From Mesostigma viride (Eukaryota > Streptophyta > Mesostigmatophyceae > Mesostigmatales > Mesostigmataceae): a stretch of 64,000 bases of DNA. A program made the translations under genes and the position numbers. The notes under the pieces were generated by a model, which saw only the letters and a program-made list of their open reading frames with translations, was not told where the DNA came from and did not search any database. Positions 871 to 35,202 of the stretch are shown here, one piece after another; position 1 is the first letter of the stretch, and each line of letters starts with the position of its first letter. The stretch spans positions 3,698,251-3,762,250 of the forward strand of contig RPFO01000080.1 in assembly GCA_009746045.1 (NCBI GenBank). The letters run 5' to 3'.

Positions 871-896
871 TGCAAAAACTTTACAAGCACGCTCAA

Positions 897-4069: not shown

Positions 4070-4279
4070 ATGATTCGTCGTACGTACGCACATATCCTCG
4101 CATGCCATGTCGACGCTGCACTGACACACACCAGGGACTTTGGAAGGTGCGCACCCAGCCCGCCCAGGTAATTGATGCGGTGTTTTGCAGGCGCGCACCG
4201 CCGGATGCGCCCACCACGCCCGCCACCGCACGTCCAGTGACCGACTGTGGTCCACGTTCTTTTTCGCCTGCGGGTGCAG

Positions 4280-5079: not shown

Positions 5080-5190
5080 CTCCCTCTCCCTCTCCCTCTC
5101 CCTCTCCCTCTCCCTCTCCCTCTCCCTCTCCCTCTCCCTCTCCCTCTCTCCCTCTCCCTCTCCCTCTCCCTCTCCCTCCCTCCCTCCCTC

Positions 5191-5283
<93 letters not shown>

Positions 5284-6130: not shown

Positions 6131-6822
6131 CCCTCTCCCTCTCCCTCTCCCTCTCCCTCTCCGTCTCCCTCTCCCTCTCCCTCTCCCTCTCCGCTTACGC
6201 CCTCCCTCTCCCTCTCCCTCTCCCTCTCCCTCTCCCTCTCCCTCTCCCTCTCCCTCTCCCTCTCCCTCTCCCTCTCCCTCTCCCTCTCCCTCTCCCTCTC
6301 CTCTCCCTCTCCCTCTCCCTCTCCCTCTCCCTCTCCCTCTCCCTCTCCCTCTCCCTCTCCCTCTCCCTCTCCCTCTCCCTCTCCCTCTCCCTCTCCCTCT
6401 CCCTCTCCCTCTCCCTCTCCCTCTCCCTCTCCCTCTCCCTCTCCCTCTCCCTCTCCCTCTCCCTCTCCTCTCCCTCTCCCTCTCCCTCTCCCTCTCCCTC
6501 TCCCTCTCCCTCTCCCTCTCCCTCTCCCTCTCCCTCTCCCTCTCCCTCTCCCTCTCCCTCTCCCTCTCCCTCTCCCTCTCCCTCTCCCTCTCCCTCTCCC
6601 TCTCCCTCTCCCTCTCCCTCTCCCTCTCCCTCTCCCTCCCTCTCCTCTCCTCTCCCTCTCCCTCTCCCTCTCCTCTCCCTCTCCCTCTCCCTCTCCCTCT
6701 CCCTCTCCCTCTCCCTCTCCCTCTCCCTCTCCCTCTCCCTCTCCCTCTCCCTCTCCCTCTCCCTCTCCTCTCCCTCCTCTCCCTCTCCCTCTCCTCTCCT
6801 CTCCTCTCCTCTCCCTCTCCGC
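6131..6822 (+). repeat. CCCTCT satellite, second block
   Basis: About 690 bp of CCCTCT hexamers with occasional CTCCT shifts. It ends abruptly at the unique sequence beginning GCGATTGGCTC. In the second unit the corresponding array is longer and contains the assembly gap. Confidence 0.97.
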
Positions 6823-7234
6823 GATTGGCTCTTTAATTATGTCTCTTTTGGAGACGACTGAGCATGCATCCTGATTGGTCAGATTCAATTCCCCTGTCCA
6901 GTTTCTCGGACAGTGTCTCAAGTCCGGTTGCTTGATCCAGGATTGAAACGTGGCTCGAGGCCTGGCCACTCTTGTGCGGTGCGCCGCGCTATGTGCTGTC
7001 TGCGCCCAGAACCTGACCATGGCCATTAGAAGGCGGGGCGAATGCAAGAATTCATTGTTATATCCTGATCCGTCCTGGGATTAGGTCCTGGGCGTATGGC
7101 AGATTAATATTACCCTCGTTTATGGCAACCTAACATGCGGTGCCGATCCTATTCAATACATAATCCGTCTGAGACTGGACGGTACGGACCAATATTTCGG
7201 TGCAAGATTGAGTTTGCCTCAAAGCTATGTCGGC
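6823..7234. other. Unique spacer between forward and inverted halves
   Basis: About 410 bp linking the pyrimidine satellite to the inverted diverged copy. It has no counterpart after the second satellite at 22838. No open frame of interest, no repeat and no RNA gene is seen. Confidence 0.6.
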
Positions 7235-13100: not shown

Positions 13101-15015
13101 ATCAATGTAGGTAGACAAGCCATGATGACACCATGGGAGCCTGAATCCTCATCATTATTATTATGAGACATCCATGTACGTAGGCCAGCCATGATGACAC
13201 CATGGGAGCATGAATCTCATCATTTCTTTTTCTTTGACATCCATGTACGTAGGCCAAGCCATGATGACACCATGGGAGCCTGAATCCTCCTCATTAATTA
13301 CATACAATGCCATCCATGTACGTACACGGCCAGAATGGACACCATGGGAGCCTGATCCTCATCATTTATACTATTCCTTGACATCCATGTACATACGTAG
13401 GCCAGCTGGAGACACCATGGGAGCCTGAATCCTCATCATTAATTACATAAAATGCCAACATGTACGTAGACAAAGCCATGATGACACCATGGGAGCCTGA
13501 ATCCTCCTCATCATTACATAAATGCCAACCAATGTACGTAGAACAAGCCATGATGGACACATGGGAGCCTGGGAATCCTCATCATTAATTTACATACATG
13601 CCATCCATGTACGTAGACAGCCATGATGACACCAATGGGAGTGAATCCTCATCATTTTACTATTCTTGACATCCATGTACGTAGGCAGCCATGGAGACAC
13701 CATGGGAGCCTGAATCCTCCTCATTATTACATAAATGCCAACCATGTACGTAGACAAGAGCCATGGATGACCTCTATGGGAGCCCTGAATCCTCATCATT
13801 TACTAATTCCTTGACATCCATGTACGTAGACCGAGCTATGATGACACCAAAATGGGAGCCTGAATCCTCTCATCTAATTAACATAAATGCCAACCATGTA
13901 CGAGACGGGCCTGAATCGACCCCCATGGAGCCTGAATCCTCAATCATTTTTTGTATGAACATCCATGTCGTAAGGCCAGCCATGATGACACCATGGGAAG
14001 CCTGAATCCTCATCATTTTTTTTTCTTTGACATCCATGTACGTAGACGGGCCATGATGACACCATGGAGCCTGAATCCTCATCATTAATTACATACATGC
14101 ATCCATGGTACGTACACGGGCCATGATGACACCATGGGAGCCTGAATCCTCATCATTTACTATTCCTTGACATCCATGTACGTAAGGCCAGCCATGGAGA
14201 CACCATGGGAGCCCTGAATCCTCCTCGTTAATTACATAACATGCCAAACCATGTACGTAGACAAGCATGATGACCCCATGGGAAGCCTGAATCCTCATCA
14301 TTAATTACATAAATGCCATTCATGTACGGTAGGCCAGCCATGGAGACACCATGGGAGCCTGAATCCTCATCATTATTACATCATGCCAAACAATGTAGGT
14401 AGACCAAGCCATGATGACACCATGGGAGCCTGAATCCTCATCATTATTTATAGAGCAGTCCAATGTATAGCAGCCATGATGACACCATGGGAGCCCTGAA
14501 TCCTCATCATTTCTTTTTCTTTGACATCCATGTACGTAGGCCAGCCATGATGACACCATACTGGGAGCCCTGAATCTCCTCATTAATTACATACCATGCC
14601 ATCCCATTACGTTACACGGGCCATGATGACACCAATGGGAGCCTGAAATCCTCCTCATTTACTATTCCTTGACATCCATTGTACGTAGGCCAGCCATGGA
14701 GAACCATGGGAGCCTGAATCCTCAATCATTAATTACATAAATGCCAACATGTACGTAGACAAGCCATGATGACACCATGGGAGCCTGAATCCTCCTCAAT
14801 TAATTACATAAATGCCAACCATGTACGTAGAACAGCCATGATGACACCAATGGGAGCCTGAAATCCTCATCATTAATTACATACATGCCATCCATGTACG
14901 TAGACAGGCCATGATGACAACCATGGGAGCCTGAATCCTCATCATTTACTATTCCTTGACATCCATGTACGTAGGCCAGCCATGGAGACACATGGGAGCC
15001 TGATCCTCAATCATT
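10141..15015 (-). repeat. ~70-bp satellite, inverted orientation, noisy
   Basis: About 4.9 kb of the same satellite as at 1-640, reversed: GGGAGCCTGAATCCTCATCATT, then ACATAAATGCC, then CATGTACGTAGG. Between roughly 10150 and 14700 nearly every unit carries scattered single-base insertions and deletions, while units beyond 15043 are clean. This pattern fits poorly polished long-read consensus better than biological divergence. No genes are present. Confidence 0.92.
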
Positions 15016-15042
15016 AAATACATAAATGCCATCCATGTAATT
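15016..15042. other. Palindromic junction of inverted and forward satellite
   Basis: The inverted array ends in ...CCTCAATCATT. A 27-bp spacer (15016-15042) follows, and the forward array then starts AATGATGAGGATTC. The satellites on both sides are thus mirror images across a tiny spacer. This is either a true palindromic rearrangement or a foldback chimera created during sequencing or assembly. Confidence 0.85.
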
Positions 15043-16080
15043 AATGATGAGGATTCAGGCTCCCATGGTGTCATCATGGCCCGTCTACGTACATGGATGT
15101 CAAGGAATAGTAAATGATGAGGATTCAGGCTCCCATGGTGTCATCATGGCTTGTCTACGTACATGGTTGGCATTTATGTAATTAACGAGGAGGATTCAGG
15201 CTCCCATAATGTCTCCATGGCTGGCCTACGTACATGGATGTCAAGGAATAGTAAATGATGAGGATTCAGCTCCCATGGTGTCATCATGGCCCGTCTACGT
15301 ACATGGATGGCAATGTATGTAATTAATGATGAGGATTCAGGCTCCCATGGTGTCATCATGGCCCGTCTACGTATATGGATGTCAAAGAAAAAAAATGACG
15401 AGGATTCAGGCTCCCATGGTGTCATCTGGCTGGCCTACGTACATGGATGTCTCATAAAAAAAATGATGAGGATTCAGGCTCCCATGGTGTCATCATGGCC
15501 CGTCTACGTACATGGTTGGCATTTATGTAATTAATGAATGAGGATTCAGGCTCCCATGGTGTCATCATGGCCTGTCTCGTACATGGATGGCATGTATGTT
15601 ATTTAATGATGAGGATCAGGCTCCATGGTGTCATCATGGCTGGCCTACGTACATGGATGTCTCAGAAAAAAAATGTGGAGGATTCAGGCTCCCATGGTGT
15701 ATCATGCTGGCCTACGTACATGGATGTCCTCATAAAATAAATGATGAGGATTCAGCTCTCCCGTGGTGTATTATGGCCCGTCTTCGTGTTGTTGGCATGT
15801 ATAAGAATTAATGATGAGGATTCAGGCTCCCATAGTGTCATCATGGCTGGCCTACGTACATGGTTGGCATTTATGTATTTAATGATGAGGATTCAGGCTC
15901 CCATGGTGTCATCATGGCTTGTCTATGTACATGGTTGGCATTTATGTAATTAATGATGAGGATTCAGGCTCCATTGGTGTCATCATGGCCCGTCTACGTA
16001 CATGGGTGGCATTTTGTATTTTAATGATGAGGATTTAGGCTCCCATGGGGTCATCATGGCTTTGTCTACGTACATGGAGT
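15043..16080 (+). repeat. ~70-bp satellite, forward orientation, second unit
   Basis: About 15 units equivalent to those at 1-640. The last nine or so match the left-edge units in order, including the variant with GTGGAGGATTC and the one with CGTGTTGTTGGCATG. This places the direct duplication inside the satellite and sets the register of the 7-kb unit copies. Confidence 0.93.
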
Positions 16081-19000
16081 CATATTGATTCATGGAACAA
16101 TGAGATACCATTCTTAATTGAAAATTGTTCTTGATACTTTCACATGCATGCCCGGAAATCGTTGAATTTGTGCGGGTTTCCATGATGACATCCTCATTGA
16201 ATTCTTGAGCACACAATATTGAGCAAATTTAGGGGCACTTCGGCAATGTTGACCTTTTCATTCATGATCAATAAAATTAACATTTAATGCAATAAATACA
16301 TATTCTCACTCATTTTTAATAAACCATGCAAAAACTTTACAAGCACGCTCAAGCTGGGGTGGGCTGGCAATGCACGCGTGGGTGTGGGGTGGGCTGGCAT
16401 GCATGCGTGGGTGTGGGGGTGGCTGGCATGCACGTGTGGGTGTGGGGGTGGGCTGGCATGCATCGTGGGGTGTGGGGTTGGGCTAGCCTGCATGCGTGGG
16501 TGTGGGGGGGGCTGGCATGCATGCGTGGGTGTGTGTGGGGGGCTAGCAATGCATGCGTAAGTGTGGGGGGGCTGGCATGCATGCGTGGGTGTGGGGGGGG
16601 GCTGCATGCATGCGTGGTGTGTGTGGGGGGCTAGCATGCATGCGTAAGTGTGGGGGGGGGCTGGCATGCATGCGTGGGTGTGTATGGGGGCTGGCATGCA
16701 TGCGTGGGTTGTGTGTGGGGGGCTAGCATGCATGCGTGGGTGTGTGTGGGGGGGGGCTGTCATTCATGCGTGGGTGTGTGTGGGGGCTGGCATCCATGCG
16801 TGGGGTGTGTGGGGGGCTAGCATGCATGCGTGGGTGTGGGGGTGGGCTAGCATGCATGCGTGGGTGTGGGGGGGCGGTCATGCATGCGTGGGTGTGTGGG
16901 GGGGCTGGCATGCATGCGTGGGTGTGTGGGGGGGCTAGCATGCATGCGTGGGTGTGGGGGTGGGCTAGCATGCATGCGTGGGTGTGAGTGTGGGCTAGCA
17001 TGCATGCGTGGGTGTGGGGGGGGGCTAGCATGCATGCGTGGGTGTGGGGGGCGCGGGGCCGGGGCTAGCATGCATGCGTGGGTGTGGGGGTGGGCTAGCA
17101 TGCATGCGTGGGGTGTGGGGGGGGGCTAGCACGCCCCACCCCTCCATCGGCACAGCCGCCTTGGTGAGTCTACCCTTAACAAACAAGGCTGGTAGGACGA
17201 CACGCCTGAGCAGCATATGTCATGCCTATCTCAGGCTATAATGTGTGATTTTGTGCCAACAACCAAGTTGTTCCACCCAACAACACATTATAAACCCTCT
17301 TCCAAAATGCCAACAAGCCGGACACGTGGAGGACCACACACGCAGTATATAAAGAGAAAATAAGCTGACTTTTTATCCAGCCAACCTGTGGCTAGCTGCT
17401 CTGGTTAGCATGACAAATGCTAACATTTACTCAGTGGGAAAGGTGAAGAGACCATTGGAACAGCCTACCTGACGCATGTGCCACCAAAGCATTGTGTCCC
17501 GCAAAATGCACACTGCCTCCTTTCTAACAAGCACGAGCCGCTCTCTTTAGGAGACAGGTGCCAGCTCGTCAGTGTCTGGGGAAAATGATGCCGCTGCTTA
17601 GGAAACCGCGTGAATTTCTCGAACACAACTGTCTATAAAGCAAAAAGAAATTTCAAGAGAAGCATGGAAATAAAAGCATTACACCTTCCCGACAGGTTGT
17701 GGGCCACGCGCTGCAGCAAGCCAGCCACGTCACAGACGAACTTGCTTAAAAACATCCAGGAATCCAGCGATGCAGCGCCAGGACCCGCAACTTCATGGCT
17801 GCATCTGGCCGGAAAGAAGGCAAAAAGCTTACGCTCAACGAGGTAAGAAGCAGGAAAGCGCTATCTTAGGACGTTTAATACAAGAACGTACCATAACGGG
17901 CATTTATTCGTGCCCAGGCCGCCACAAGAAAGGCCACCCTTTTCATGGAGAGGTCGGGCGCGCATGGCGCAGGCCTAATGTTATCTTACCGCAAAATGAC
18001 GGAAAAGGTAAAGATAGCAAGCGGGAATTTTTACGGCTTTTAGAAAACATCATTAAACTAGCTTCCATTAGGACCATCAAAACTGGCAACAAATCGACAA
18101 TCAACACCTGCAGGCATCAAATTATACTTTATTCATCCCGACAGAAATTCAGGCCGGACCCCCTGCCGATGGTAAAGAAAAAGAGCCCGCGACATTATAG
18201 ATCGCAACTATCCCACCATAAATTAGAATCAGTAACTAATTTTCTCCAAGAATCGAGCATTTTTTTTCTGCTTTCCGCGAGGCCAGATTTGTCACGTTTC
18301 GTCTAAAAAGCAGTCGCCATGGCCACTTCCGCAAGGGGTGCGCGCACCGTGCACCCACTTTTTTCACGGTACGGGAGGGTACCGCGGGAATTTTTTGGCG
18401 CGGAAAATATTGCCGCCAAAAATTAACCATGCATGCATGCCCCGTCGTCTCCAAACTTTGCATTACATGCACGTGACGGCGTGTTCCCTCGGTCATGGTG
18501 CGCGGCGGTGCCAGCTGGACTGATGTCATGCCCTCCACGTAGGCTCGTTCTACACTTTCAAAACTGATCCATTGGCGCAAATTAGAGATATTGGAAAGGT
18601 AGAATCAGGTTCTGAAGGTTTACATAGTAGCCTAGTAAGGGTACACTAACATGTAGCCCAGTAGTTACTAATCCCTGCGATCATGACGGAATATACATGT
18701 AGTGATACTAATCGATACATGTAGTACACCATGGTTGGCGCACAGAATGTTGTACAACCTGCCCTACATGTCGGAAAAACGCACACTCTGACAACACGTG
18801 ATTGAATATTGTGTACAACATCATCACTAACGCTACATCCGGAAACTGTTCTAGTGAATAGCATTACAATGTACTCCCCGGCAGGTGTGGGTGCCCGAGT
18901 ACTTGGGAGTCTGAACACGCAGTGTCGACTCCTATTGGTGCAAAAAGTCGTTTGGTGTGAAACGACTGGTCCAACCTAAAAAAATTTTGAATTTTTTGCC

Positions 19001-20570
19001 GTGTCCAGTAACGGTCCTAGGTTGCCAACCCGCGGGAACGTTCCGGCAGCTGTACAGAATAGATCAGAAAGATACGCCGCGGAATGACGCCAGTGCCCGG
19101 CAAATGTGAGTCGGGAACTGAACAGTCACTACAAACGTCGAAAATCTATTGCCTTCCCCCCCCCAAAAAAGCGTTCCGGAACTGTTCGAAGCGAATAGCA
19201 CTGACAGGACCGAACCTGCGTCCAGAGTGAGGTTGCGGAGTGAGGGAGGCCAGCCATCATGGTCCGCACAACAAATCTGGCTCGGGTCCGATCCCTGTCA
19301 GTGCTCTTCGCTTCGAACAGGTCCGGAACGCTTTTTTGTGGGGGATGGAGCAATAAATACTCGACATTTGCAGTGACTGTTCAGTTCCGGGCTCACAAAT
19401 GATTTGCCGGGCACAGGCGTCGTTGCGCGGCGTATCTTCTTGTGATCTTTTCTGTACAGCTGTCGGAACGTCCCGCGGGTGCAACCTAGGACCGTTACTG
19501 GACACGGCAAAAATTTAAAATTTTTCAGGTTGGACCAGTCGTTTCACATGATTCGTCGTACGTACGCACATATCCTCGCCATGCCATGTCGACGCTGCAC
19601 TGACACACACCAGGGACTTTGGAAGGTGCGCACCCAGCCCGCCCAGGTAAATTGATGCGGTGTTTTGCAGGCGCGCACCGCCGGATGCGCCCACCACGCC
19701 GCGCCACCGCACGTCCATGACCGACTGTGGTCCACGTTCTTTTTCGCCTGCGGTGCAGCCCCCATAATGCGTACGAGCAGCTTCACGGCTTTCTTCTTTG
19801 GAAATCAAGAACAACGGGCCTGACAACAACAACAGCAACGACAGCAGCATCAGCTCCAACAAGAGTGAGTTGCGGGATTTTACGTACGTGGTTTTTTTTT
19901 TTTTTTCACCCTGGCATGTTGAGTATTCATCCCATTTTGCGTCATGACGGCTTCCCTGAACGACGACTCTCTCTCCCTCTCCCTCTCCCCCCCTCTCCTC
20001 CTTTATTTTTCACCAGGTTTTTTCATGCCGATTTTAAATCCCTTTTGCGTCATGCTCCTTGTAGCGTGATGTCGTCAATTGTCACTCACAAACAATACTA
20101 TCATTGTGGTTCGTTCTTTTTCGCCTGCGGGTGCAGGTCACGAGCGTTGCGTACGAGCAGCACTTACATCATTAAATCAAGAACAACGGGCCTGACAACA
20201 AGAAAACGACAGCAGCATCAAGCAACAACAAGAGTGAGTTGCGGGATTTTATGTACGTTGTTTTTCTCATGTTTTTTCACCTGTCATGTTGAGTATATTC
20301 ATCCCATTTTGCGTCATGCCGGCTTCCTGAACGACGACTCTTCTCTCCCTCTCCCTCTCCCCCCCCTCTCCCTCTTATTTTTCACCAGGTTTTTCATGCC
20401 GATTTTTAATCCCTTTTGCGTCATGCTCTCCTTGTAGCGTGATGTCGTCAATTGTCACTCACAACCAATGCTATCATTGTGGTTCGTTCTTTTTTCGCCT
20501 GCGGGTGCAGGTCACGAGCGTTGCGTGCGGTGCGTCATCAATCCAAGAACAAAACACGATGTGGCTAAAC
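16081..20570 (+). repeat. Second direct copy of the 7-kb unit (non-satellite part)
   Basis: Colinear with 641-5079 throughout: AT-rich edge (16081-16325), minisatellite (~16355-17133), internal segment (17134-18956), foldback element (18957-19547) and triplicated exon-like module (~19755-20570). Differences are mostly one-base gains or losses, often in homopolymers. Open frames here are shifted relative to the first copy, which is further reason not to treat them as genes. Confidence 0.9.
18957..19547. mobile_element. Foldback element, second copy
   Basis: Same structure as 3485-4069: arms 18957-19217 and about 19287-19547 around a short spacer, bounded by the same AGTCGTTT/AAACGACT palindrome. 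It lies at the same relative place, so it was carried by the duplication and did not insert independently. Confidence 0.78.
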
Positions 20571-22838
<2,268 letters not shown>

Positions 22839-22896: not shown

Positions 22897-23300
22897 GTTA
22901 CGCCCGCCGTCGTTTCTTGTCTTACTGGAAGAGCACATGACCAACATTGGTTGTGCTAGTTACGCCCGCCGTCGTTTCTTTTGCCTTTTCGATGTCGAAA
23001 TATATCTCGGGAAAGATGCACCCCCGTCAGTTAACTTGTCATCTTGTAAGCTCAATCTTTCCATGATAGTTACGCCCGCCGTCGTTTCTTTTGCATCTTC
23101 GATGTCGAAGTGTTTGTCGTGAAAGTTGCATCCCCGTCAGCTTCTTGTAAGATCAATGTTTCATGATAGTTACGCCCGCCGTCGTTTCTTTTTTATTTTC
23201 GATGTCGAAGAATATGTCGTGAAAGTTGCAGCGCGTTCGTGTCCATTGTGATCTTGTGATATCAAAGTTTCCCATGATAGTTACGCCCGCCGTCGTTTCT
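22897..23300 (+). repeat. Five-copy array of the GC-rich dyad motif upstream of the gene island
   Basis: Copies of a motif whose core reads ACGCCCGCCGTCGT, preceded by GTT and followed by TTCT, start at 22897, 22959, 23069, 23169 and 23280. From the third copy the repeat period is 100-111 bp, and the units share extra sequence (TTCGATGTCGAA palindrome, CGTGAAAGTTGCA, CATGATA before the motif). The array ends 126 bp before the first small gene. Related motifs follow through the island to 32751. It may be a leader intron, a promoter array or a small mobile repeat; the sequence alone does not decide. Confidence 0.8.
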
Positions 23301-23425
23301 GTTGCTTCTCGTTCGTTTAAAATATCTAATGAAGTTTTTACCATCGTTCACCTAAAACAAATTACTTTAAATCTGCACCCGTTAAACCACACCCCCCTCG
23401 AAATGACTCCATGGTTGCAGAACAA

Positions 23426-23650
23426 ATGTCAGAAGAAGAACAAAAAAAATGCTTCGGAAACCACAAGCGCAAAAGGAAAGCCGATGACAATTTAGAGACC
23501 CTCTCGGAGGATGTGCCGGAGTTGGTTTCTTCGGATGACGAGTTTGAATACTCAAAAACATCAGGGGGACAAGTTCTTGAGAAAGCATGGAAGGTGTTTG
23601 TGACAAACGCGTTTGTGGAATGGATAAAAAAAAACTATTCCGAGGAATAG
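23426..23650 (+). CDS. Small acidic/basic protein, 74 aa, unknown function
   Basis: First open frame of the island. I choose the ATG at 23426 over the one at 23411 because GGTTGCAG directly before AACAAATG looks like a splice acceptor, as at the other genes of the cluster. The protein opens acidic (MSEEEQKK), has a lysine/arginine-rich stretch (KRKRKADD) that could act as a nuclear localisation signal, a Ser/Asp/Glu middle, and ends in an aromatic helix-like segment (VFVTNAFVEWIKKNY). I recognise no family. It is followed 68 bp later by the MYND gene on the same strand. Its short length and lack of homology leave it uncertain. Confidence 0.5.
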   Translation: MSEEEQKKCFGNHKRKRKADDNLETLSEDVPELVSSDDEFEYSKTSGGQVLEKAWKVFVTNAFVEWIKKNYSEE

Positions 23651-23718
23651 TAACTTGTTATTATAAAATAATAAATTAATGTTTATGAATTTTTTTGTTC
23701 GTTTTTTCCCTGAAAAAG

Positions 23719-24474
23719 ATGGAGTCCGAGATCGTGAATGAAGTCTACGGAAGCGTCCTTCAAAACGTTTTCAAACAAGTTCGCTTTCTGTCGCGTGTCA
23801 TATTCGAGGAAGTTCGAGTCGCGCAGGAGAGGACAGGCCGCCACTTGGCCGTTTTATTGGCGTTTGATTCGTTCAGCCAAATGGAGAGAATTATGTACGC
23901 CCAGCTAGCTGATATGAACTTCTGTATTCAAGAGGGTTTTTTCAGACCACAGATGGATCTAAGAGTGCCCATAGACCCAAGGACGGAGTTCCGCCTTTTG
24001 GTGTCGTTCATTACAAAGGGGCCAAAGATAGAGTTGGGGGAAGAGGAAGGGGCTCAGCTTGGGTGCACCTACGGGCGCGCATTTTACCCGAATGTTACGC
24101 ATTCTCTGCGCGTGAGGGCTGATGCATGTGTAGGGGCAGTACCCCTCAACATGAACTTTTTCTTGCTCTCTGACCCGATCGTGAGGGATGGGGATCGCAT
24201 GCGTAGTACGCGAAAGTGCTCCAAGGAGGGGTGTGGGTGCGAAACAGGACCTCATATCAAGTGGTGTAGAGGATGTAGGGATGCCAGATATTGCAGTGAG
24301 GAGTGCCAGCGTGCGGACTGGAGTAGGCATAAGGATAGATGCGAACGTCTGAGGCAAGCGAGGGAGGTGCTGGCAGGGGTGAAGTGGGGGGTTAACGTGA
24401 CGACGATACTGGATAAAACTATGGGGTCTGATGTCGACTTCTCCTTCAACTTCCACGACGGCTCTGCCTCTTAG
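23719..24474 (+). CDS. MYND zinc-finger protein, 251 aa
   Basis: The C-terminal third (about residues 157-199) shows the MYND pattern: C-x4-C, then WCRGC, RYCSEEC, and W-x2-H-x3-C. These are the cysteines and histidine that bind two zinc ions in MYND domains, which usually mediate protein-protein contacts in chromatin and transcription factors. The first ~150 residues are helical and unfamiliar. The ATG at 23719 follows AAAAAG directly, so a spliced or trimmed 5' end is possible. No dyad motif separates it from either neighbour. The MYND assignment is firm; the role is unknown. Confidence 0.8.
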   Translation: MESEIVNEVYGSVLQNVFKQVRFLSRVIFEEVRVAQERTGRHLAVLLAFDSFSQMERIMYAQLADMNFCIQEGFFRPQMDLRVPIDPRTEFRLLVSFITKGPKIELGEEEGAQLGCTYGRAFYPNVTHSLRVRADACVGAVPLNMNFFLLSDPIVRDGDRMRSTRKCSKEGCGCETGPHIKWCRGCRDARYCSEECQRADWSRHKDRCERLRQAREVLAGVKWGVNVTTILDKTMGSDVDFSFNFHDGSAS

Positions 24475-24575
24475 AAAAACTTGAAATGTAGAGTAATAAC
24501 TTGTTTATATGATGTTATATTTAATGTTTAATGTTTAATGTTTATAACGTATCATTTTCCTCCTACGCGCAGGAA

Positions 24576-24776
24576 ATGGTGGAGGTTAAGGAGAGTTTGG
24601 CCAAAAGGCAAAGGACCGACACACTTCGACATAATGGAAGGAGTCTTCCATTGTACATCAAAAAAATAGTCGAGGATTACTGGCTCGCTTCCGACTCGAC
24701 TCCTCGTCCGAGTCCGGTGATACCGGACAGTGTCAAAGTCTGGAAGGTTTCAGCACATCAATCGCACATTGAATAG
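24576..24776 (+). CDS. Small protein, 66 aa, unknown function
   Basis: The frame starts at the ATG three bases after an acceptor-like CGCGCAG. It encodes a basic N-terminal half (LAKRQRTDTLRH) and a Pro/Ser-rich C-terminal half, with no recognised domain. Upstream, 24479-24560 is AT-rich with repeated TTTAATG. Downstream, a dyad motif sits at 24810-24830, 34 bp after the stop. It is as well supported as the 74-aa neighbour: by position and acceptor, not by homology. Confidence 0.42.
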   Translation: MVEVKESLAKRQRTDTLRHNGRSLPLYIKKIVEDYWLASDSTPRPSPVIPDSVKVWKVSAHQSHIE

Positions 24777-24809
24777 ATAATGTTTTATCGCCATATTGCT
24801 GTTCGACAA

Positions 24810-24830
24810 GTTGCGCCTTGGGGCGTTTCT
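24810..24830 (+). promoter_or_regulatory. GC-rich dyad motif after the 66-aa gene
   Basis: Core GCGCCTTGGGGCGT within GTT...TTCT. The first and last five bases pair (one G-T), and the core differs in sequence from other copies while keeping pairing. It lies 34 bp after a stop and 111 bp before the next ATG. Hairpin terminator, processing signal or binding site are all possible. Confidence 0.65.
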
Positions 24831-24910
24831 TTGCGCCAAATTTAAACCTTCGTATTAATAAACAAGTACAATAAAAAAATTTCAAAACGTTTTTTGAATT
24901 TTATTTTCCG

Positions 24911-24940
24911 GGGCCGGTATGTTATCGTAACTTGTCGCAG
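24911..24940 (+). promoter_or_regulatory. Conserved leader immediately before the 24941 gene
   Basis: The segment GGCCGGTATGTT...TCGCAG runs straight into the ATG. Nearly the same segment (GCGGCCGGTATGTTCTGGTT, then TCGCAG) precedes the 26088 gene, and both coding regions start ATGTCC. A poly-T/AT-rich stretch precedes each. This suggests shared promoter and/or splice-acceptor function. Confidence 0.55.
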
Positions 24941-25807
24941 ATGTCCGGTTCGACGGAAGATTCGTCCGATTCGTCTAGTCACCTCCTGATGGAGGATTGG
25001 CAACGACTTCAACAACACCAAGCGGTTGCCACTGTCATTCAGAGTGTTGCTCGCTCAATAGGGGCGCCGCGCAAGTGTGATGTGTCCACTTGCAAGAAAA
25101 CCGCTCTCGGATTTGACTTGTATTGCCGAAAGCACGAAGAACATTCTCGTCACATCGAAAATGCCCTCAGTCGCGGACTTGGAATGGCGGGCGCCCTCGG
25201 ACCTGGATTGGCGGGGGGGGCCCTGCGACTTCGCCTGGACATGACTGTCGGAGAGGTCGTGGGTGTAAATTTTGATTTCACCAGGGGAGACGAGTACTTC
25301 CTTGAAGATTGGATAGTCAAAGACTCCGCGACAGGTGCGGACTTGGCAAAGGGAGGCTACGTTGCCGGCGCCCAAGAAAATGGTTGGAGTAGCTTGAGAT
25401 GCTTTTTGATGACGACACCTTTTGCCGACTCGCGTGACACGGATGTAAGCGAACTTTATCGGCGTATGTGTTTTGCACTCGCCGACATTCCGCTGATAAC
25501 TCAACGAGAGTTCGATTTTCGCGTGGAAACAAAAGCCAAAGCGATTGTATCCGGCGTGAAGGCGATTGTGGAGGAGGAGCAGGATTCTCTGTGTGCAGAG
25601 TATTTGGAGAGAGTGGCCCCGATGAAGACGAGGAGGTCCGAAATCTATCCTGACACCGGCAACAAGGAGGCAAAGTTGGTGGCCGCCAAAGAAGAGATGT
25701 TCGCTCGTGTCGATGAAATGGCGGCGAAAGAGGTTCCGAGAGTTCGCTCGATCGGTTGTTGCAAAACCTGCAGAGAGTGGAACGAGTCGCGGGACAGTCT
25801 ATATTGA
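24941..25807 (+). CDS. Cys/His zinc-site protein, 288 aa, unknown role
   Basis: The ATG follows TCGCAG directly, as in the neighbouring genes. After a Ser/Asp-rich start, residues ~45-68 carry C-x4-C-x11-C-x2-H (CDVSTC ... YCRKH), a spacing like the small zinc fingers of WRKY19-type and other eukaryotic CxnC...CxxH proteins. A second cysteine cluster (CCKTC) lies at the C terminus. The middle has a Gly/Ala/Leu-rich low-complexity run (GMAGALGPGLAGGALR). It is probably a diverged paralogue of the 26088 product, sharing the zinc site, size range and leader. Function cannot be stated. Confidence 0.72.
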   Translation: MSGSTEDSSDSSSHLLMEDWQRLQQHQAVATVIQSVARSIGAPRKCDVSTCKKTALGFDLYCRKHEEHSRHIENALSRGLGMAGALGPGLAGGALRLRLDMTVGEVVGVNFDFTRGDEYFLEDWIVKDSATGADLAKGGYVAGAQENGWSSLRCFLMTTPFADSRDTDVSELYRRMCFALADIPLITQREFDFRVETKAKAIVSGVKAIVEEEQDSLCAEYLERVAPMKTRRSEIYPDTGNKEAKLVAAKEEMFARVDEMAAKEVPRVRSIGCCKTCREWNESRDSLY

Positions 25808-25812
25808 TATGA

Positions 25813-25973
25813 GTTGCGCCCGCCGGCGTTTCTCTGGTCTTGAATGCCCCCCCTCTACATACACATTATATTGTCTGGACATTCGTATGTAGTGACAATC
25901 GTAGTCGATGTGATTGCCATTCGTTTGTACGTAGAAAGTGGTTGTTGAGGAAGTTGCGCCCCAGGGCGTTTCT
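25813..25973 (+). promoter_or_regulatory. Two GC-rich dyad motifs between the zinc-site genes
   Basis: Copies at 25813-25833 (core GCGCCCGCCGGCGT, six bases after the stop) and 25953-25973 (core GCGCCCCAGGGCGT). The second is an almost perfect hairpin with a two-base loop. The two cores differ exactly in the central bases and retain arm pairing. The intervening sequence is plain AT-rich spacer. Confidence 0.68.
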
Positions 25974-26060
25974 TTGTTGCATTTTCTTCAAATTTTAGCT
26001 CGCATAAATAGATGAAGATGACTTAATAAATGCCAGTTTTTTTTAATAATATAAACTACT

Positions 26061-26087
26061 CGCGGCCGGTATGTTCTGGTTTCGCAG
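26061..26087 (+). promoter_or_regulatory. Conserved leader immediately before the 26088 gene
   Basis: Counterpart of 24911-24940: GCGGCCGGTATGTTCTGGTT, then TCGCAG, abutting ATGTCC. GTATGT...CAG resembles the two ends of a miniature intron but spans fewer than 30 bases, too short for normal splicing. It is more likely a conserved acceptor region or promoter element. Confidence 0.5.
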
Positions 26088-26822
26088 ATGTCCAGTCTGA
26101 CGGTCGACATAAGGGGACGTCCATATCAGGACGCTGTTTTCCGGATTTTTGAGAAGGATCCCGAAAAGAAGTGCCGGGATAGGAAATGTAAAAAGCTGTC
26201 AATTACCGACATGGGTCTGTGTGGGGAACACATCGTAGCTTTTGGAAAGGACATGATTTCCCGTCATTTGCAACAATACGTTGACAACAATTGTGTGGGA
26301 GGGGCGCAGATGGACGTCCTTCTTGAGGATGGAGTGGACGGAGCCAAAAGGGCTGTAATTCGGCTGTCGGAAATGGATGATGACAAAGAGGACGTGAACA
26401 TTCGCCTTAAGAGGCACGACGATAACACGGCCGATTGTGTGTTTGGGTCTCGAGGAGTGGCGGATGAGAGGCAGGTCTTCCATGATGCCGCGGAGAAGGT
26501 GGTGGAATGGATGATGGGTTGGTCAAATCTTGACGTTCGCATATTCAACCGTCTGACGTCTGATTTCCTTCTCCGGGGAAGTTTCAAGATGGTTGACCGT
26601 GCAAGGCAGTCCAGGAACCAGGTATCCGTTTCCATGGCCAGTCCGATCGCACGCATGATTGAGGGGGGCCCTCTTCCGCGCAACCTTGCCTCGAGATTTC
26701 GAAAATACCGTGAAGGGCTCGACCGAAAATCAGCAGCGATTTCCCATTCGCGAACCACTTATGGGTCGACGGAGGTGGTAACGGAATTTTTTTGCATTTC
26801 CTTGCCAATTGATTCTTTATGA
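26088..26822 (+). CDS. Cys/His zinc-site protein, 244 aa, unknown role
   Basis: Residues ~28-46 contain C-x3-C-x10-C-x2-H (KCRDRKC ... LCGEH), matching the arrangement in the 24941 product. The rest is acidic and helical (EMDDDKEDVNIRLKR) without a recognised domain, ending in a Ser/Thr-rich tail. The start abuts TCGCAG. A dyad motif follows 41 bp after the stop. Near the C terminus, GAGGTGGTAACG could be a donor giving an alternative end, but nothing supports its use. The pairing with the upstream gene suggests local duplication. Confidence 0.7.
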   Translation: MSSLTVDIRGRPYQDAVFRIFEKDPEKKCRDRKCKKLSITDMGLCGEHIVAFGKDMISRHLQQYVDNNCVGGAQMDVLLEDGVDGAKRAVIRLSEMDDDKEDVNIRLKRHDDNTADCVFGSRGVADERQVFHDAAEKVVEWMMGWSNLDVRIFNRLTSDFLLRGSFKMVDRARQSRNQVSVSMASPIARMIEGGPLPRNLASRFRKYREGLDRKSAAISHSRTTYGSTEVVTEFFCISLPIDSL

Positions 26823-26862
26823 GGGACATAGAGTTGTTTGTATAGAGAGTGAATTGACGAAA

Positions 26863-26996
26863 GTTGCGACGGCGGTCGCATCTTTTAGTGCGTCGTTCTC
26901 TTGTTATGAATCTCTGTTCATTCTGAATTATAACGTTGTTTGTACCTTGACATAATGATGCATTTTTTGTATTGAGTTGCGACGTGGGGCGCATCT
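26863..26996 (+). promoter_or_regulatory. Two GC-rich dyad motifs upstream of the large island gene
   Basis: Copies at 26863-26883 (core GCGACGGCGGTCGC) and 26976-26996 (core GCGACGTGGGGCGC). In the first, the arms GCGAC and GTCGC pair perfectly. Relative to the GCGCC...GGCGT versions both arms have changed together, which is evidence for selection on pairing. The second copy ends 48 bp before the ATG at 27045. Confidence 0.68.
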
Positions 26997-27044
26997 TCCT
27001 GCTGACTCGTATGTTTTTTCCAATTTTTTTGTTTTGTGTTGCAG

Positions 27045-30000
27045 ATGGAAAAGGGCGGCCCTACATCGCAGGTGGTCGGCGACTCTCCCCCTAGGGGGGA
27101 AGGGTCAGAAGGGCAACCAGTTCAGGCCCAAGGCGCCTCCCCACAACAGCCTCCTCACAAGCGTGCAAGGGAGGGCACGCCGCCCCCAATGGTGGAATCT
27201 GGTGTCAGCTTTGCCGCGGTCACTGGGAAGGATGAGTACCACGGTGGTCTTGAGATGGTGGACGATCCGGTTAAGCGGATTCAGATTGAGCGGTTTGAGC
27301 GACTCGCGAATGGCACTCGTGAACAGCAATTCGCGCTGTACCAAGACATCCTTAATGACAAACCTGAAGTCGCCAAGGTGCCTTATACCTCCAAGCGCAC
27401 ATTCATGCCTCGTTTCGAAACCCTGCTCCAGCAGGAGCTAAGGTTGCGTCGGTTGGCTCAGAATGCGCCAGAGACAGTAGCCGCCGCGCCCTCCCATGCC
27501 GCGCCTGCCGCAGTAGCCCAAAAGAGGGGGGAGAGTGTGCACGAGTCGGCCGCAGTGCCCTCAACCGCAAGGGATCCCCCCGCGACTTCCAAGCCGGTCG
27601 CGACGGGCGATATGCCCCCGCCGCGGCAGAGGGGAAGGGGGAAGGGGGTCGATGGAGGGGAAGTCCTCGATGTTTTCGATATGACGCTGGGCAATTTGGA
27701 AGGTGGCGGGCCGATCTTCGTAAGTCTCCGCCCATTAAATTGATGTCGTGAAATACAATACGCATTTTTTTGCAATATTCGCCAGACATGTCATTTCCGA
27801 CAACTAAGCGGATTTTTACTTTCCGTTGAAATGTTCGCAGGGCCGGCAAGAGGATGTTGGTGCAAGAGAAGCCCGCTCAATGGCGGGAAGCACCCAGGTA
27901 CATGAGTGCGTCAGATTCCTCTCCGGTTTACTTGTATTGAAAAGGTTTGCGTGCGTATATCCTTGTTTATTTTTGTAGTAATTTTTTTCTTGTGAATGGA
28001 CAATCGCGTTTGCTATTTTTACAGGGAAGTCCGTTCGAGCAGCAAGAGGGCGGTGACAGGAGGGGAAGTGGATCTTACGGTGGTTCCACTGCAGAGGGGG
28101 GAAGGGTAAGTTACCGTTGACTTACAAATTGAAAGTTTAGGTTCGTCCTCAATTGACAGAGTTACGACGGCCGGCGTTTCTCTACACTTTTCTTACATTA
28201 AAAATCTTCCGTTGATAATGTTCTTGCAGGAAGCCGGTCGTCAGGGTGGGGCAAATCTCCAGGGAGAGGGGGCTATCGCTGTCGGTGAGCCTGTGTCAGA
28301 GGGCGCGGGTGGAAGCGACGGCGATACTGCGAAAATGACACGCTTTAAGGAGCAAGCGGATGCTTATCAACTGAAGAAGTTGGCAAAGTGGGTTGTGGCC
28401 GAGGTGAGAACGGAAACAGCCCCACCTGAGGTACGGAACCAGATGATGACTCTCCATCAAGTCGCTGAGTTGATCGTGAAGAATGCGTGCGCGCCCGATG
28501 GCGCCACACAGCCTGAGGAGATCCCGAGCGCCAAGGCCTTGATAAAGTGGATGGAGGAGAACCTGTTCGAGGGCAAAGGGAAGGAGAGGAAGTGTAAACT
28601 GAAGACGGTGACGATGGCGGACGCCAAGACTCTGATCAAGATGTTGAAGGAACACGATGCCCGCCGGGACAAGTCTCCGAAGATCGCGAAGGGGTCGAAG
28701 AAAGCGGCTGAAGCAGCAGCGGTTGAGGGGAATGAGGTAAGTCTACCTCTGTTGTGAGGGGGGCTTTGTTCTTGAGGTCCAGGTTTCATGTAGGTTGCGA
28801 CGGCCGGCGTTTCTCAAGTGTGACACTTACTTCCTTTTGACTAACACTTACTTCCTTTCCTGATTTCGCATCGTTGAGGGAAATGAGCCAAGTGTACCTC
28901 TGTTGTGAGGGGGGCTCTGATCTTGAGGTTTAGGTTTCATCTAGGTTGCGACGGCCGGCGTTTCTCAAGTGTGACATTTACTTTATTCCTTTCGGTTATG
29001 CTTTCCTGATTTTTTCATATCATTGTTAAGGGGAACGAGGTAAGTATACCTCTGTCGTGAGGGGGGCTTTGATGTTGAGGTTCAGGTTTCATGTAGGTTG
29101 CGACGGCCGGCGTTTCTCAATCGGCATTTACTTTATTCCTTTTGGTTATGCTTTCCTGATTTTTTCGCATCAACGCAGTACGTGCAGGCCGAGAGGGCGA
29201 CCCACGCGGCCATCCTGTACTCAATCAGCCTCGACCAGCACGCGCGCCGCGAGAACATGAAAATAGATAGTACGTGGACTGCTGCCGTCGACGAACACCA
29301 GAAGGGACTCTCCGAAGCACTTGCGACCTACAAGGGGAAGGCGCTGAAGGGAAAGGGGAAAGGAAAGGAGGTGGAGGTTGCGGATGCTCCCGTGTCTCTG
29401 CTTGAGAAATGGGAGAAGTCCCCGGTGTCGCAGGATGATGATGACATCCTGGATGTGAACGATGAGATCGCGAAGGGCAAACGGTTGCGGAAGCAGCTTG
29501 CCGTTCAGCCTCGGGACCTCGATGAGATGTCCAAAGCCTTGGTGCATCGAAATCGGGTGTGGACAAGGAACCTGTTCGTGGGGCCTCAGAAGCTCCTCGC
29601 ACGAGACTTGCATCTGTCTAGAGCCGAGCAGAACGCCACCATTTTTGCAAACTCGGAGTCCGACTACGGCCACGACAAGCTGGTGATTCCTGTGTGGCGG
29701 TACTCGTTCCAGTTTTTGGCTGACCGGTGCCCCAACAGTTTTCATGACTGGATGAAAAAGGAAGGCACCCAGCGTCAGCTCGCGCAACTCTTCGGGGAGA
29801 TGGGGGGGCACGGACAATGAAGGCTGGCTACGCTCGCGCAATGACTGACAAAGAGATTGATATCTACCTGCGAACGAGCTCGGCCAAGGGAATGGCCGAA
29901 GCTGCTTCCACCGCGGTTCTGACAGGACCGGCCGATATTCTGGACTCACTTAAGCCCGTGGACGTGAGAAAGGCCGCGCTTTTGGACAGTTTGTGCAAGT

Positions 30001-32155
30001 CCGCCTGGGAGATGGCTCCACTCGAGAAGAAGACACCGTTGCCGCCAGCCATTTGCGGCTTTCTCGTGCTGGACGGGAACCACTTTACCACACTCATCAA
30101 ATCGGTGAAATTCGAACTGGTCACCGACAATATGACGGTGGACCAAAGATCTGTGTGGTACCAGGCAATGCTGAATGGTTTCATGAAGGCGGAAAAGCTC
30201 AGGGTCGTTGCGCGGGGAGGGAAGGAGCAGGAGGTCACGAAGACCGTGGCCGCGGCGAAGCTGGAGGAGTGGGCAACTGATTGGACGAATTTCGGGGGGT
30301 GGACGTGCAGATGCTCAAGGGTGAGACCATCCTGCCGACCTGGTGGCAGATCCGTGAACAGAAGGTAAGCCAGGTTGCGACCGCCGGCGTTTCTATAAGT
30401 GGTTTTCTTGTGTTAATTTCAGTATGCCATTAGTTCGGTCAAGATGCGACCGCCGGCGTTTCTATAAGGGGTTTTCATGTTCCACCTTAGCATGCCATAT
30501 TTTGGTCAAGATGCGACCGCCGGCGTTTCTGTCAGTCGTATTCTTGTTCTCAGTTGAGTTGTGCTTATTTGGGAGGACTGTCGATGTGTCTCTGCGCGTT
30601 GTTGCCCTACGGGGATGCAGGTTACCGAACAAGTCGGCAAGATGATCGAAGTTGTCAGGCAGCTCGGGAACGCCATGAACGCCGAGGACACAGCCCAAGC
30701 CAAGGCAACGTGGGGCTCAGCGCTGGGGGATGTGCACCGGGCCTACCAGGCATATGGACCCGTCAAGAGAGGGAAGGGCGTGTCTCTCCCAACTCCTCTG
30801 TACGGCAAGATCTGGGCGATTGTGAAGCCCTTTTGGCAGAAAGGAGAGCAAGCCAAGGCCGAAGGGGACGGCGCAGGCGACAAGGCAGGAGGGGCTGAAG
30901 AGACGGACAAGTGGGGGCCGGACCAGAAGAACTTCATGCAGCGCTGGCTGTTCTGGTGTGAGGACCCTTTGAAGCCCGCTGTCGACGGCAAGCCGGCGAT
31001 CGCACAGGATATCGCGGCTCGGCAAGACTTCCTTGACACGCGCCCTAAAGACAAGGCGCACGAACTGTCCATTTTCACCGCGCATCGGGAACTTGCGAGT
31101 TTCCAGTACTTCGACAGCCTGATCCAAGCGCCGATCATGTCCTGTGAGGCCCCTCCCAGCAACCTGATAAAAATAATGGAAGTCGCCAAGAATTTGATAG
31201 AGGCGGCAAAGCAATTCGCCCACATCAAGTTCCTGGAGAACCCCGAGCTGATGGCCGCTTGCAAACAACTAAACGGGACTTTCGACCCCGTATTGGTGAG
31301 GGAGCACGTGTTTGGCGTGAAGCTGAAGGGCACCGTCGCCACGGACCTCGACAAGTTCATCGCCGACTGCCGCCTGACCAGAGACTTTTGGCGGGTGATC
31401 GTCACGGCCACGAGGGCGATCATTCTCACGCTGAGGGACCTTCCGCCGGCTAAAAGGAAAGTGGTCGACCAGAAGGACTGGAAGTTCCCGAGAGGGCTGC
31501 TCGCTTCCCACCCCCGTCATTTGTATGACGATTTGGGGGTGAAGACCAAACATCTGCTGGGTGTGCCACAGCAGGAGGCGGCGGCGGAGGAGGAGGTGCA
31601 GGCGGCGGCTAAGGAGGAGGGGACTGCCAAGGCCAAGAGGGGGTGGTGGGACAGGCTGGAAGCCTTCACCTATTGGGACGGGGTGAAGATGGGACCCGAC
31701 TGGATCGCATACAGGACAATGACATGGAAGGAAAACGAAAAAAGAAAGGATCTGGTGGTGACGAAGGTGGTGGACGAGTTGTACACGGGGTCTGAAGACC
31801 TTCCTGGGAAGCTGAAGGACCAGGCGTTTGCTGTGCTGGACCTGACAGCTGACAGCAACGAGAAGTGGAGGAACCTGCGCGAGTGGGATCAAGACTGTAT
31901 TCCGGTCGACAGCCAGATACCCTTACCCTCCTCCCGTTTGAGGTATGCCGCGTGGGATGTGGTTGACCAGATCACCAAGGCCCTGTTGAAGGGACCCTCC
32001 AGAGTTCTGCTGGTGTTCGGGTTACCCGCCCATATCCGCCGGTGGAAGCGCCTGGTCCGACTTATCAAATATCGGCTTCTTGAAGATGGGTGGCAAGACG
32101 TCGACATGGACTTTGCCGTGGTCGTGGACGACGAAGACGACGGGGATCATCATTC

Positions 32156-32211
<56 letters not shown>

Positions 32212-34061
32212 GCTCGGAGAAGGAAGAGGTTTACGAGGAGGAAGAGGGGGAGGAGGAAGAGGGGGAGGAGGATATTGCTGAGGGGCACCCGCCCGGGGTG
32301 GGTGGGGGGCAGGCGGAGGGGGAGAAAGGGGATGGGGATGGGGAGGAGGGAGGAGGGGGGAGGGGGAGAGGGACGGGGGAGGAGATGGAAGGGGAGGGAA
32401 AAAGCGCAGTCGGGATGATGGAGGCTCGCGGGAGGAGACAATGGGGGGGATGAAGACAAAAGGGGGGGAGGTAAGCGCCAGCGTGCTGGTGAAGGAGACT
32501 CGAGGCCTGTCGTTGGAAACGCCGGCGGGCGTATCTGTGATGAGGAGGGGGATCGCCAGCGGGAGGGAGGCTCGCGGCCTGTTACTGGAAACGCCGGCGG
32601 GCGTATCTGTGATGAGGAGGGGGATCGCCAGCAGGAAGGAGGCTCGCGGCCTGTTACTGGAAACGCCGGCGGGCGTATCTGTGATGAGGATGGGGATCGC
32701 CAGCAGGAAGCAGGCTCGCGGCCTGTTACTGGTAGCGCCGGCGGGCGTTCCCGATTTACGGGAGGCGGTCGTGTCCAACAGGTGGGAATGAGGCCTCGTC
32801 AGGATTCATGGGGACCCCCGGTTGAGGGGACCCCCGCCCTCGCCTCGGTTTCTTTGGGTCTGGGTGACGATCCCGTACCGTCGTCAGGAAGGACGGTTGT
32901 GATGACTTTGCCCCCCCGCTCGACGGGGATGGAGCAATGCCCGAACACGATACTGCTGAATGAGGATGACGATCCGGAGCCGTCGGCTGACACGGATTTT
33001 GTTGCGAGCACCCCACTGCAGAAGAGGGTATTGGAGGCTCGTAACGTGGAGGGTCCGCCGAAAGTCTCAGGTGGAGGGCCGGCGTTTGCCGGATTGATGC
33101 GCCCGACTGAGGTGGTCGATGTTGAGGCGCCGCCAGGGACATCGGCCGGACACTATACCGCATTGATGGAGCCCTTCGATCGACCAAGGATGCCCTTCCA
33201 CGCTCCAACGGTACATTCGGCCGGTAAATTTCATTTTCAATAAACGAGTTTAATAAGTACCTTAATATATATTTCTACATAAGTTTTTTTGCATCAGTCC
33301 ATGGCTTCATTGATTTCTCACACGACCCTTCCGTATTCATGTTAATTGGCATGTGCTTACGTGCAGGGAAAGGCGAAGAAGAAACTCCAGTTCGGTTTCC
33401 CCGTGGATCCGCGTCTGGGACTGTGTCCAGAGAGGCCGGCCGTGTTGTTGGCCAGGCCGCGGTCGGCGAACCAGTTGCACAACCGGGGGCGGGAGGGGAC
33501 GAGCTCCCACCCAACGCACCAACTCACGCACCAGCCTTACCGTGCGGTCAGCCAGAAAAAACGTACGAAGAGTTGATGGCAGAGGCGGCGGCTGCGCAGG
33601 GGCAGAAGGCAAAACGTCGGGGAGGGGGCAGGCGAGGGGCGGGGCAGGAGACGGAGGGTGCCGACGAACCTGCACAGCCGCAGAAGGGTGGTGGTCAGGG
33701 CAGAGATGCGACGGCCGAAAACCGAATCAGGGACGTTCGGCCGGACGTCCGGATGCGCTTTATGGATGGCGCGAAACTGAGTCGCGGAGGTTGGAGTTCG
33801 AAATGGGTAGACGAGGTGTGCATAAACTGGGAGCACAAGTACCCCAAGAAGGAAGATTTTCCGCTCTTTGGCACCCTCCTGGGCAAAGAGAGGGAGAAGG
33901 TGGTGTTCAGATGGTTTGATGAAGGGCACGACCTCGGTTGGAGTAATGAGTGCGAGCAAAAGTTTCGTTTCCCTCTGAAGTTCGCTAGAGAACATGTTAC
34001 TCTCCTGAAGGAAGGCGCCAGCTGGGACAACATTCCTTCATATCGACCTGGCAAGCGATGA
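27045..34061 (+). CDS. Large eight-exon gene, ~1831 aa, unknown function, with three single-G frame breaks
   Basis: Exons by splice sites and phase: 27045-27719, 27841-27897, 28025-28105, 28230-28736, 29179-30364, 30621-32470, 32782-33223 and 33367-34061 (stop TGA). All introns are GT-AG, and phases agree across every junction only if one G is added in each of three G runs (29802-29808, ~30295-30300, 32443-32449). The product is rich in Pro/Gln/Gly near the start (exons 1-4). Exons 5-6 are globular and helical, and exon 6 ends in a run of about 18 Asp followed by Glu-rich sequence. The last exon is basic, then ends in a compact domain with many aromatic residues (WVDEVCINWEHKY, VVFRWFDEGHDLGW). 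I recognise no family. The ATG directly follows TTGCAG. Introns 3, 4, 5 and 6 carry dyad motifs. Alternatively exons 1-4 and 5-8 could be separate genes. Confidence 0.7.
28161..28181 (+). other. Dyad motif in intron 3 of the large gene
   Basis: Core ACGACGGCCGGCGT within GTT...TTCT, 55 bp after the donor at 28106. The outer pair is A-T here against G-T or G-C in other copies, so the pair is kept while the bases change. Confidence 0.65.
28737..29178 (+). repeat. Intron 4 made of three tandem copies, each with a dyad motif
   Basis: Three units of about 150 bp, each running from a donor-like AATGAGGTAAGT (second copy AATGAGCCAAGT) through TACCTCTGT, TGTGAGGGGGGCT, a dyad motif (28794, 28945, 29097) and TTTCCTGATTTTTTC to the next unit. 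The final unit ends at the acceptor CAACGCAG. The repeated unit includes the last bases of the preceding exon, so the duplication created extra donor sites that may be used alternatively. Confidence 0.75.
29802..29808 (+). other. Frame break at a seven-G run in exon 5
   Basis: The frame of exon 5 stops at 29818-29820 just after this run, and the next frame opens with an overlapping ATGA. One extra G joins the two frames smoothly. With one more G near 30300, exon 5 becomes a whole number of codons matching both neighbours. A homopolymer under-call is the simplest explanation. Confidence 0.7.
30365..30620 (+). repeat. Intron 5 with three dyad motifs in near-tandem copies
   Basis: Motif copies at 30374-30394, 30443-30463 and 30510-30530 (core GCGACCGCCGGCGT), 67-69 bp apart. 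The flanks are shared between copies (CGGTCAAGAT before, TATAAG and TTTTC after). The first begins ten bases after the donor. The intron ends at GGGGATGCAG. Confidence 0.72.
32471..32781 (-). repeat. Intron 6: 72-bp tandem repeat carrying the dyad motif in reverse orientation
   Basis: Four units of 72 bp with motif cores at about 32516, 32588, 32660 and 32732, here read as ACGCCGGCGGGCGT on the plus strand, the reverse complement of the usual form. The unit also holds GCTCGCGGCCTGTTACTGG and GATGAGGAGGGGGATCGCCAG. Because 72 is a multiple of three, the intron is open on both strands, so retention would add a repetitive peptide in frame. The donor GAGGTAAGC and acceptor CCAACAG give matching phase when it is spliced out. 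Confidence 0.7.
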
Positions 34062-34545: not shown

Positions 34546-35202
34546 CAAAACGCTGCTTTCATGACGTCAAAAGTACCAGCAATGGCCCTAGGTTGGAGCA
34601 GTAGATGTTGGGGACGCCCAGCATTGTGCGAAAACTGTGTTGCCAGGCCGCTGGTCCGAGGTGGTTGCGACGACAGCAGAAGGCGGTTGCAGATGTCTCG
34701 GAAGAGCAGCATAACACCTGCGTCCTCAAATTCGGCTGCAAGTTTTACAACTGCGCCAGGAATCTCGTCAGAGCCGGTGGCTGCGTCATATAACCGGCAG
34801 GCGCTGGACCGCCTCCGTGACCTCGCGAGAGGTGAATAAAAGGAGGCATCTCAGACGGGTCGCCAAGTGGGCCGACCAGCGGGGGGACTAGGTGGTCCGC
34901 CGCTGACCTAGGCGGGGCCGGGGGCCCAGCGGGGCCGGCCAGGGCGGCCGGGCGGGCGGCGGCGGCTGGGAGCAGGGGCGGGGGCGGCGCAGCTGTCCCC
35001 ACGACCTCGGCCGTGGCCGTGGCCCAGGTACGAAGCCGCTTGGCTGGGGCGCCGGGGACGTCGTGGCGGTGGGGCCGGCCGAGGCCGTCCGGGTGCCCGA
35101 GGCGCTTGTACCAGAACCAGGCCCCCTTGCCGTCGTGCTTCTGCTGGCAGCTGCGCAGGTCCTTGACCATCTGCTGAGCATCTGCCTTCTCAGCCTAGCT
35201 CC

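Follow-up and report, generated by a model that had tools for sequence, protein, structure and literature searches.

Short non-coding motifs by which a transposon is recognised by its own anti-silencing protein are known from the VANDAL elements of Arabidopsis. VANC21 binds the motif YAGTATTAY in introns, intergenic DNA and terminal non-coding DNA of VANDAL21, and the motif multiplies through tandem repeats (PMC5735166, PMC10398659). VANDAL elements are of the Mutator type, and the range of target-site duplications (TSDs) given for MULEs is 7-12 bp (PMC10741241). Repeated sites are likewise found in Spm/En and other large CACTA transposons with TNPA subterminal repeats; TNPA binds these motifs and is required for Spm/En transposition (PMC2613891). 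Sola elements have 4-bp TSDs (PMC10741241, PMC3627910), and giant DNA transposons with accessory genes, including a Sola-1 in a brown alga, are already known from algae (PMC12477816).

The locus described here, in Mesostigma viride, resembles the VANDAL/VANC system in that a short motif is confined to non-coding DNA, has been multiplied in tandem and is spread over a transposon. The differences are substantial – the VANC motif has nine bases and the site here is a 20-bp two-fold symmetric one; the element is 24-110 kb long; its TSD is 4 bp, outside the Mutator range; a VANC-like protein was not found, and anti-silencing is here something we infer. Compared to Spm/En, the sites are spread over the arms, the ends begin GGGCG rather than CACTA, and the TSD is 4 bp rather than 3 bp. 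The element is like Sola in its terminal inverted repeats (TIRs) and 4-bp TSD (12 of 15 pairs), but its transposase-like protein has no Pfam or PDB match. It is also larger than the known Sola and giant algal transposons, for which the available sections of PMC10741241, PMC3627910 and PMC12477816 do not mention a dyad tag. We found no report of the dyad in the literature searched on Mesostigma transposable elements or terminal inverted repeats, a search of partly available texts with supplements and subscription papers outside its scope.

The window, meaning the whole 64-kb stretch of DNA that was analysed, is C1106:3698251-3762250 in a genome of 439.9 Mb in 2,243 contigs. Its features are as follows.

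1..22832, no strand: interior of the transposon, with satellites of 71-bp and 30-bp units, arrays of CTCCCT and of CTTACG, and segments that are repeated
22897..23299, +: five dyads upstream of the first gene (at 22897, 22959, 23069, 23169 and 23280), by motif search
23719..24474, +: gene encoding a MYND zinc finger (zf-MYND in Pfam: 2.3e-07; 31.2 bits against a cut-off of 22.7)
24810..24829, +: dyad between genes, by motif search
24941..25807, +: cysteine-rich ORF of a family without a match (no Pfam or PDB match)
25813..25832, +: dyad between genes, by motif search
25953..25972, +: dyad between genes, by motif search
26088..26822, +: ORF of a family without a match, cysteine-rich like the ORF at 24941..25807
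26863..26882, +: dyad between genes, by motif search
26976..26995, +: dyad between genes, by motif search
27045..34061, +: large spliced gene region without a family match (Mesvir1 exon matches 28218-34058; earlier exons by eye)
28161..28180, +: intronic dyad, by motif search
28794..29116, +: three dyads (28794, 28945, 29097) in the 151-bp tandem repeats of an intron
30374..30529, +: three dyads (30374, 30443, 30510) in 67-bp tandem repeats, intron 30365-30620
32516..32751, -: four dyads (32516, 32588, 32660, 32732) in 72-bp tandem repeats, probably intronic
34593..34619, +: terminal inverted repeat at the right transposon end, 27 bp in common with the transposase arm
34620..34623, no strand: target-site duplication AGCA, the same four bases as at C1106:3684875-3684878, before the left end

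The dyad has the consensus GWWRCGMC-NNNN-GKCGYWWC, 20 bp made up of two inverted half-sites and a 4-bp centre. The consensus was built from both arms of the transposon, and the counts cover sites with up to one mismatch. At one mismatch or fewer from GWWRCGMCNNNNGKCGYWWC, the window contains 21 dyads (20 exact), where 0.16 were expected (100 shuffles, maximum 2). All of them are inside 22897-32751 and the rest of the window has none, so the repeated dyad that the preliminary description placed in this interval is real. Its count of at least 19 copies is right for the dyad and wrong for the literal form given, GTT followed by a 14-base core and TTCT, since the other eight dyads start with GAT, GAA or GTA or finish with CATC, TATC or TTCC. 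The literal form matches 17 times in the window (5.64 expected); 13 matches are the dyad motif, and those at 8030, 8147, 23125 and 38669 are not dyads.

The gene island that holds the dyads is, with near certainty, an arm of a giant DNA transposon, the one that carries the passenger genes; the element has TIRs and 4-bp target duplications. In the window the dyads are restricted to the island, as had been stated, because it is such an arm. The window copy and copies A, C and D stop at the same base and then run into unrelated flanks, and island copies on contig C1 have their dyad sites in the same order. A second type of place, referred to as X, has a transposase-like gene and ends in the same 27 bases as the island arm, which it faces across satellite arrays. 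Blocks of the inner part in the window also sit between the two arms in other copies. The transposase arm bears the same 20-bp dyad at nine sites, 5' of the gene or in introns. The ends of the element begin GGGCGTCCCC, and a 21-mer of the terminal repeat is present 543 times genome-wide, compared to 0 for the control. Some ends are not part of a complete element – at C1:8336820, 1.3 kb of arm is followed by other sequence. As a separate case, at L068:1-40 the end of a transposase arm is bordered by the inner part of another copy, a nested self-insertion.

Four composites on C1, of 34,173, 110,132, 77,595 and 62,640 bp, all have a 4-bp TSD (AGAT, CGAT, TGGC and AACA), as do seven of ten further facing pairs. 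With the window copy, the duplication is found in 12 of 15 element copies of 24-110 kb, a count that leaves out a facing pair on C366. The pairs that lack it are C2:5535062/5576208, C156 and C190, and the right flank of the last resembles another element copy. The shortest TSD-flanked composites are about 24 kb (C113, C224). The left end of the window copy was located with the TSD of this copy, placed next to the terminal repeat, as the query. This combination is found at eight places genome-wide, two of them on the window contig, and one is correctly oriented 13.4 kb left of the window, at C1106:3684879. With its right end at window position 34619, the copy is 47,991 bp long, so that more than half of the window is a single 48-kb mobile element. 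A phage origin was considered and rejected: the island has no megablast match in the phage collection, and the transposase model was not found in viral contigs with six peptide patterns.

Genome-wide there are 6,851 exact dyads, against 23 for the control pattern read backwards. All 57 distinct dyads among the matches listed (C1 to 2.93 Mb) fall in copies of this one element family: 29 and 22 in two TSD-flanked giant elements and six in a further transposase-arm copy. Host factors are used by many transposons, and the dyads could be host transcription factor sites that the element captured. This is quite improbable, as the confinement of every listed dyad to element copies gives no sign of a host regulon using the full dyad. 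The same 57 sites, all in element copies, do not fit an introner element, copies of which sit as introns in many unrelated host genes, and with 10 of the 21 window dyads outside the introns that could be placed, they tell against the small intron-spreading element that had been proposed. Another repeat, GTTACGACGTCGTATGCTTCT, recurs at many listed places on C1 (e.g. 1574802, 1630064 and 4037177); it has a palindromic core, is distinct from the dyad and belongs to another repeat family.

The dyads are conserved well above their surroundings. When copies A, C and D are compared with the window, differences are seen at 6 of 1,040 dyad positions, as opposed to 449 of 9,392 other non-coding positions (Fisher p 4e-14) and 733 of 21,066 coding positions (p 2e-9); as the copies compared are related, these p-values are a guide only. 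Dyads are thus about eight-fold less divergent between copies than other non-coding DNA. The six differences represent four distinct positions, all at degenerate places and all with letters that the consensus allows (chance about 0.012). In decayed tandem arrays the dyads are 90-100% identical and their flanks 54-81%, the latter lowered because flank windows partly overrun the repeat unit.

None of the 21 dyads overlaps an exon, while coding sequence makes up 66% of the arm. The exon borders come from matches to gene models, which are predictions, for positions from 28218 onwards, and from ORFs and splice sites by eye for earlier positions. An open frame spans the block 32491-32748, but its peptide is absent from the 41 gene models (P0001-P0041), so the block was treated as intronic. 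In the transposase arm, gene model P0001 lacks the two stretches that contain the three intronic dyads. Seven of the 21 dyads follow an exon end at a distance of 5-59 bp, which does not bear out the earlier statement that most copies come within 6-60 bases of a preceding stop codon or splice donor; the others are later members of arrays or are 5' of the first gene. Relative to the genes, 18 of 20 site groups are alike in polarity, one is opposite and one could not be assigned; the first three dyads of the 72-bp array (block 32516-32679) have the opposite polarity.

Two of these features, the polarity with respect to transcription that is shared in both arms and the seven dyads that follow exon ends, are what could be cited for a dyad that works at the RNA level, as a hairpin in processing, splicing or termination, the leading option of the preliminary description. 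Predicted RNA folds agree in part: three of five cores fold at about -7 kcal/mol (z is below -1.8 in two of these), but the other two hardly fold. The true pairing of the arms outscores pairings slid by 1-3 columns, as it would in any dyad. The covariation expected of a structured hairpin is missing. Among 20 distinct site forms, 73.8% of paired cells were paired compared to a shuffled mean of 75.5% (441 of 500 shuffles equal or higher), and the covariation score was 0.136 against 0.154 in shuffles (408 of 500 as high), so that the compensating arm changes reported earlier do not stand. In 18 forms picked by hand from the site groups for the mirror and pairing test, positions 7 and 14 are paired in nine and mismatched in nine, with no association (Fisher p 0.61). 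Copy D has a C>A change at 25819 that would disrupt a pair of the stem and is uncompensated. The reversed block 32516-32679 and the lack of any Rfam family at gathering scores also speak against an RNA hairpin, which we consider improbable.

The variation is instead that of double-stranded DNA. Half-site degeneracy is mirror-symmetric in the 18 forms (left WW, R, M; right K, Y, WW), and in 264 kb searched at gaps of 0-20, 93 of 94 inverted half-site pairs have a gap of 4 bp, with no everted or direct pairs. The dyad is conserved DNA of two inverted half-sites, which vary independently of each other and have a fixed spacing of 4 bp. Mirrored half-sites of this kind indicate a double-stranded site that would be read by a protein dimer, and from its sequence the dyad is probably the binding site of one. 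Of the options in the preliminary description, it is the protein-binding dyad that this symmetry, spacing and conservation favour.

The proteins of the element give few clues to the putative binder. In a Pfam search of 17 proteins, nothing was above the cut-off except the MYND finger and an RVT_1 domain in a LINE outside the element, and neither the transposase nor the candidate binders had a credible PDB match. The transposase-like protein has only one homologue and what we take to be a D/D/D-like pattern; among 63 scored of 1,485 candidates, the identity of its core exon (residues 214-467) is 98-99%. The cysteine-rich ORF 24941..25807 is a candidate DNA-binding protein. Relatives of ORF 26088..26822 are 16 Mesostigma gene models and one entry from Prorocentrum lima (P0042, 89% identical over 61% of the ORF), for which contamination of the dataset is likelier than transfer. 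One element protein matches a gene model of Mesostigma viride (Mesvir1) at 99% identity over 87% of the portion used in the search. Genes of the element are listed like any other genes in a Mesostigma gene set, that of the Mesvir1 models.

The dyad could also be the target of an enzyme that the element encodes, whether nuclease, recombinase or DNA methyltransferase. Dyads with a 4-bp centre resemble homing-endonuclease sites, and the size and centre of the dyad would suit such a target. A Sola-1 gene of Ectocarpus has ParB-like and DNA methyltransferase domains (PMC12477816). But no such domain was found by Pfam in 16 element segments, and thousands of intact sites coexist; a target of this kind is very improbable.

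The reading to which we give a little better than an even chance, by analogy, is that a regulator encoded by the element binds the dyads, which would work like VANC anti-silencing motifs. The binder would be made by the element, since the dyad is limited to one element family and present in two otherwise unrelated arms, and it would bind each dyad as a dimer. As the sites are in the 5' region, introns and intergenic gaps and in no placed exon, the effect is likely one on chromatin or transcription over the whole element. It would keep the genes of the element expressed although the host acts to silence them, which is what VANC proteins achieve for VANDAL elements; for this effect taken by itself the analogy gives somewhat less than an even chance. 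The dyad would be an address tag by which the element recognises itself, with tandem duplication multiplying the sites and selection preserving the dyad.

Several observations count against the regulatory reading. The polarity shared by 18 of 20 groups is not needed by a symmetric site, though it may be explained by descent via duplication. Only the MYND finger is a recognised DNA-binding domain in the element proteins, and lone half-sites are only slightly denser in the arms (0.52 per kb) than outside (0.31 per kb). An epigenetic role is further weakened by a CpG observed/expected ratio of 0.94 in the arm, which, with CpG-type transitions making up 53 of the 449 non-coding changes, gives no sign of methylation pressure in the DNA.

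The main rival is that the dyads are sites for a transposase or accessory protein required in transposition, TNPA-like, with effects on expression being secondary. The precedent of TNPA and the presence of dyads in both arms are in its favour, and the TIR tip GGGGACGCCC contains the half-site core ACGCC, possibly by chance. The dyads of the island arm, however, are 1.9-11.7 kb from the transposon end, in introns and gene gaps, and do not cluster subterminally, which makes sites for transposition an unlikely explanation, if the one to be taken most seriously after the regulatory reading.

A bolder form of the regulatory reading is that the element has a sequence-specific anti-silencing system of its own, with an element-made dimer and about 20 dyads in one arm and nine in the other, all in non-coding DNA and the arms being otherwise unrelated, and that this system evolved independently of VANC. 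From analogy this is tentative, possible rather than probable. If it is true, self-recognition by short non-coding tags is not peculiar to the VANDAL elements of Arabidopsis, and large transposons found this solution more than once, in this case in a streptophyte that branched off early. The dyads, with 6,851 sites, would then be a handle on how passenger genes that span tens of kilobases of an element are kept active.

Other features of the window are incidental. There is a 25-N assembly gap inside the CTCCCT array (22125-22149), and a perfect CCAT microsatellite of 141 copies is found at 62447-63011. The RVT_1 domain (3.1e-21) is in a reverse transcriptase ORF at 50277-53096 (-), part of the LINE-type element outside the transposon. 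Next to the right transposon end, 34306-34541 shows about 70% similarity to 628-855 and 16081-16310, two segments beside the inner satellite arrays, and is perhaps an older end.
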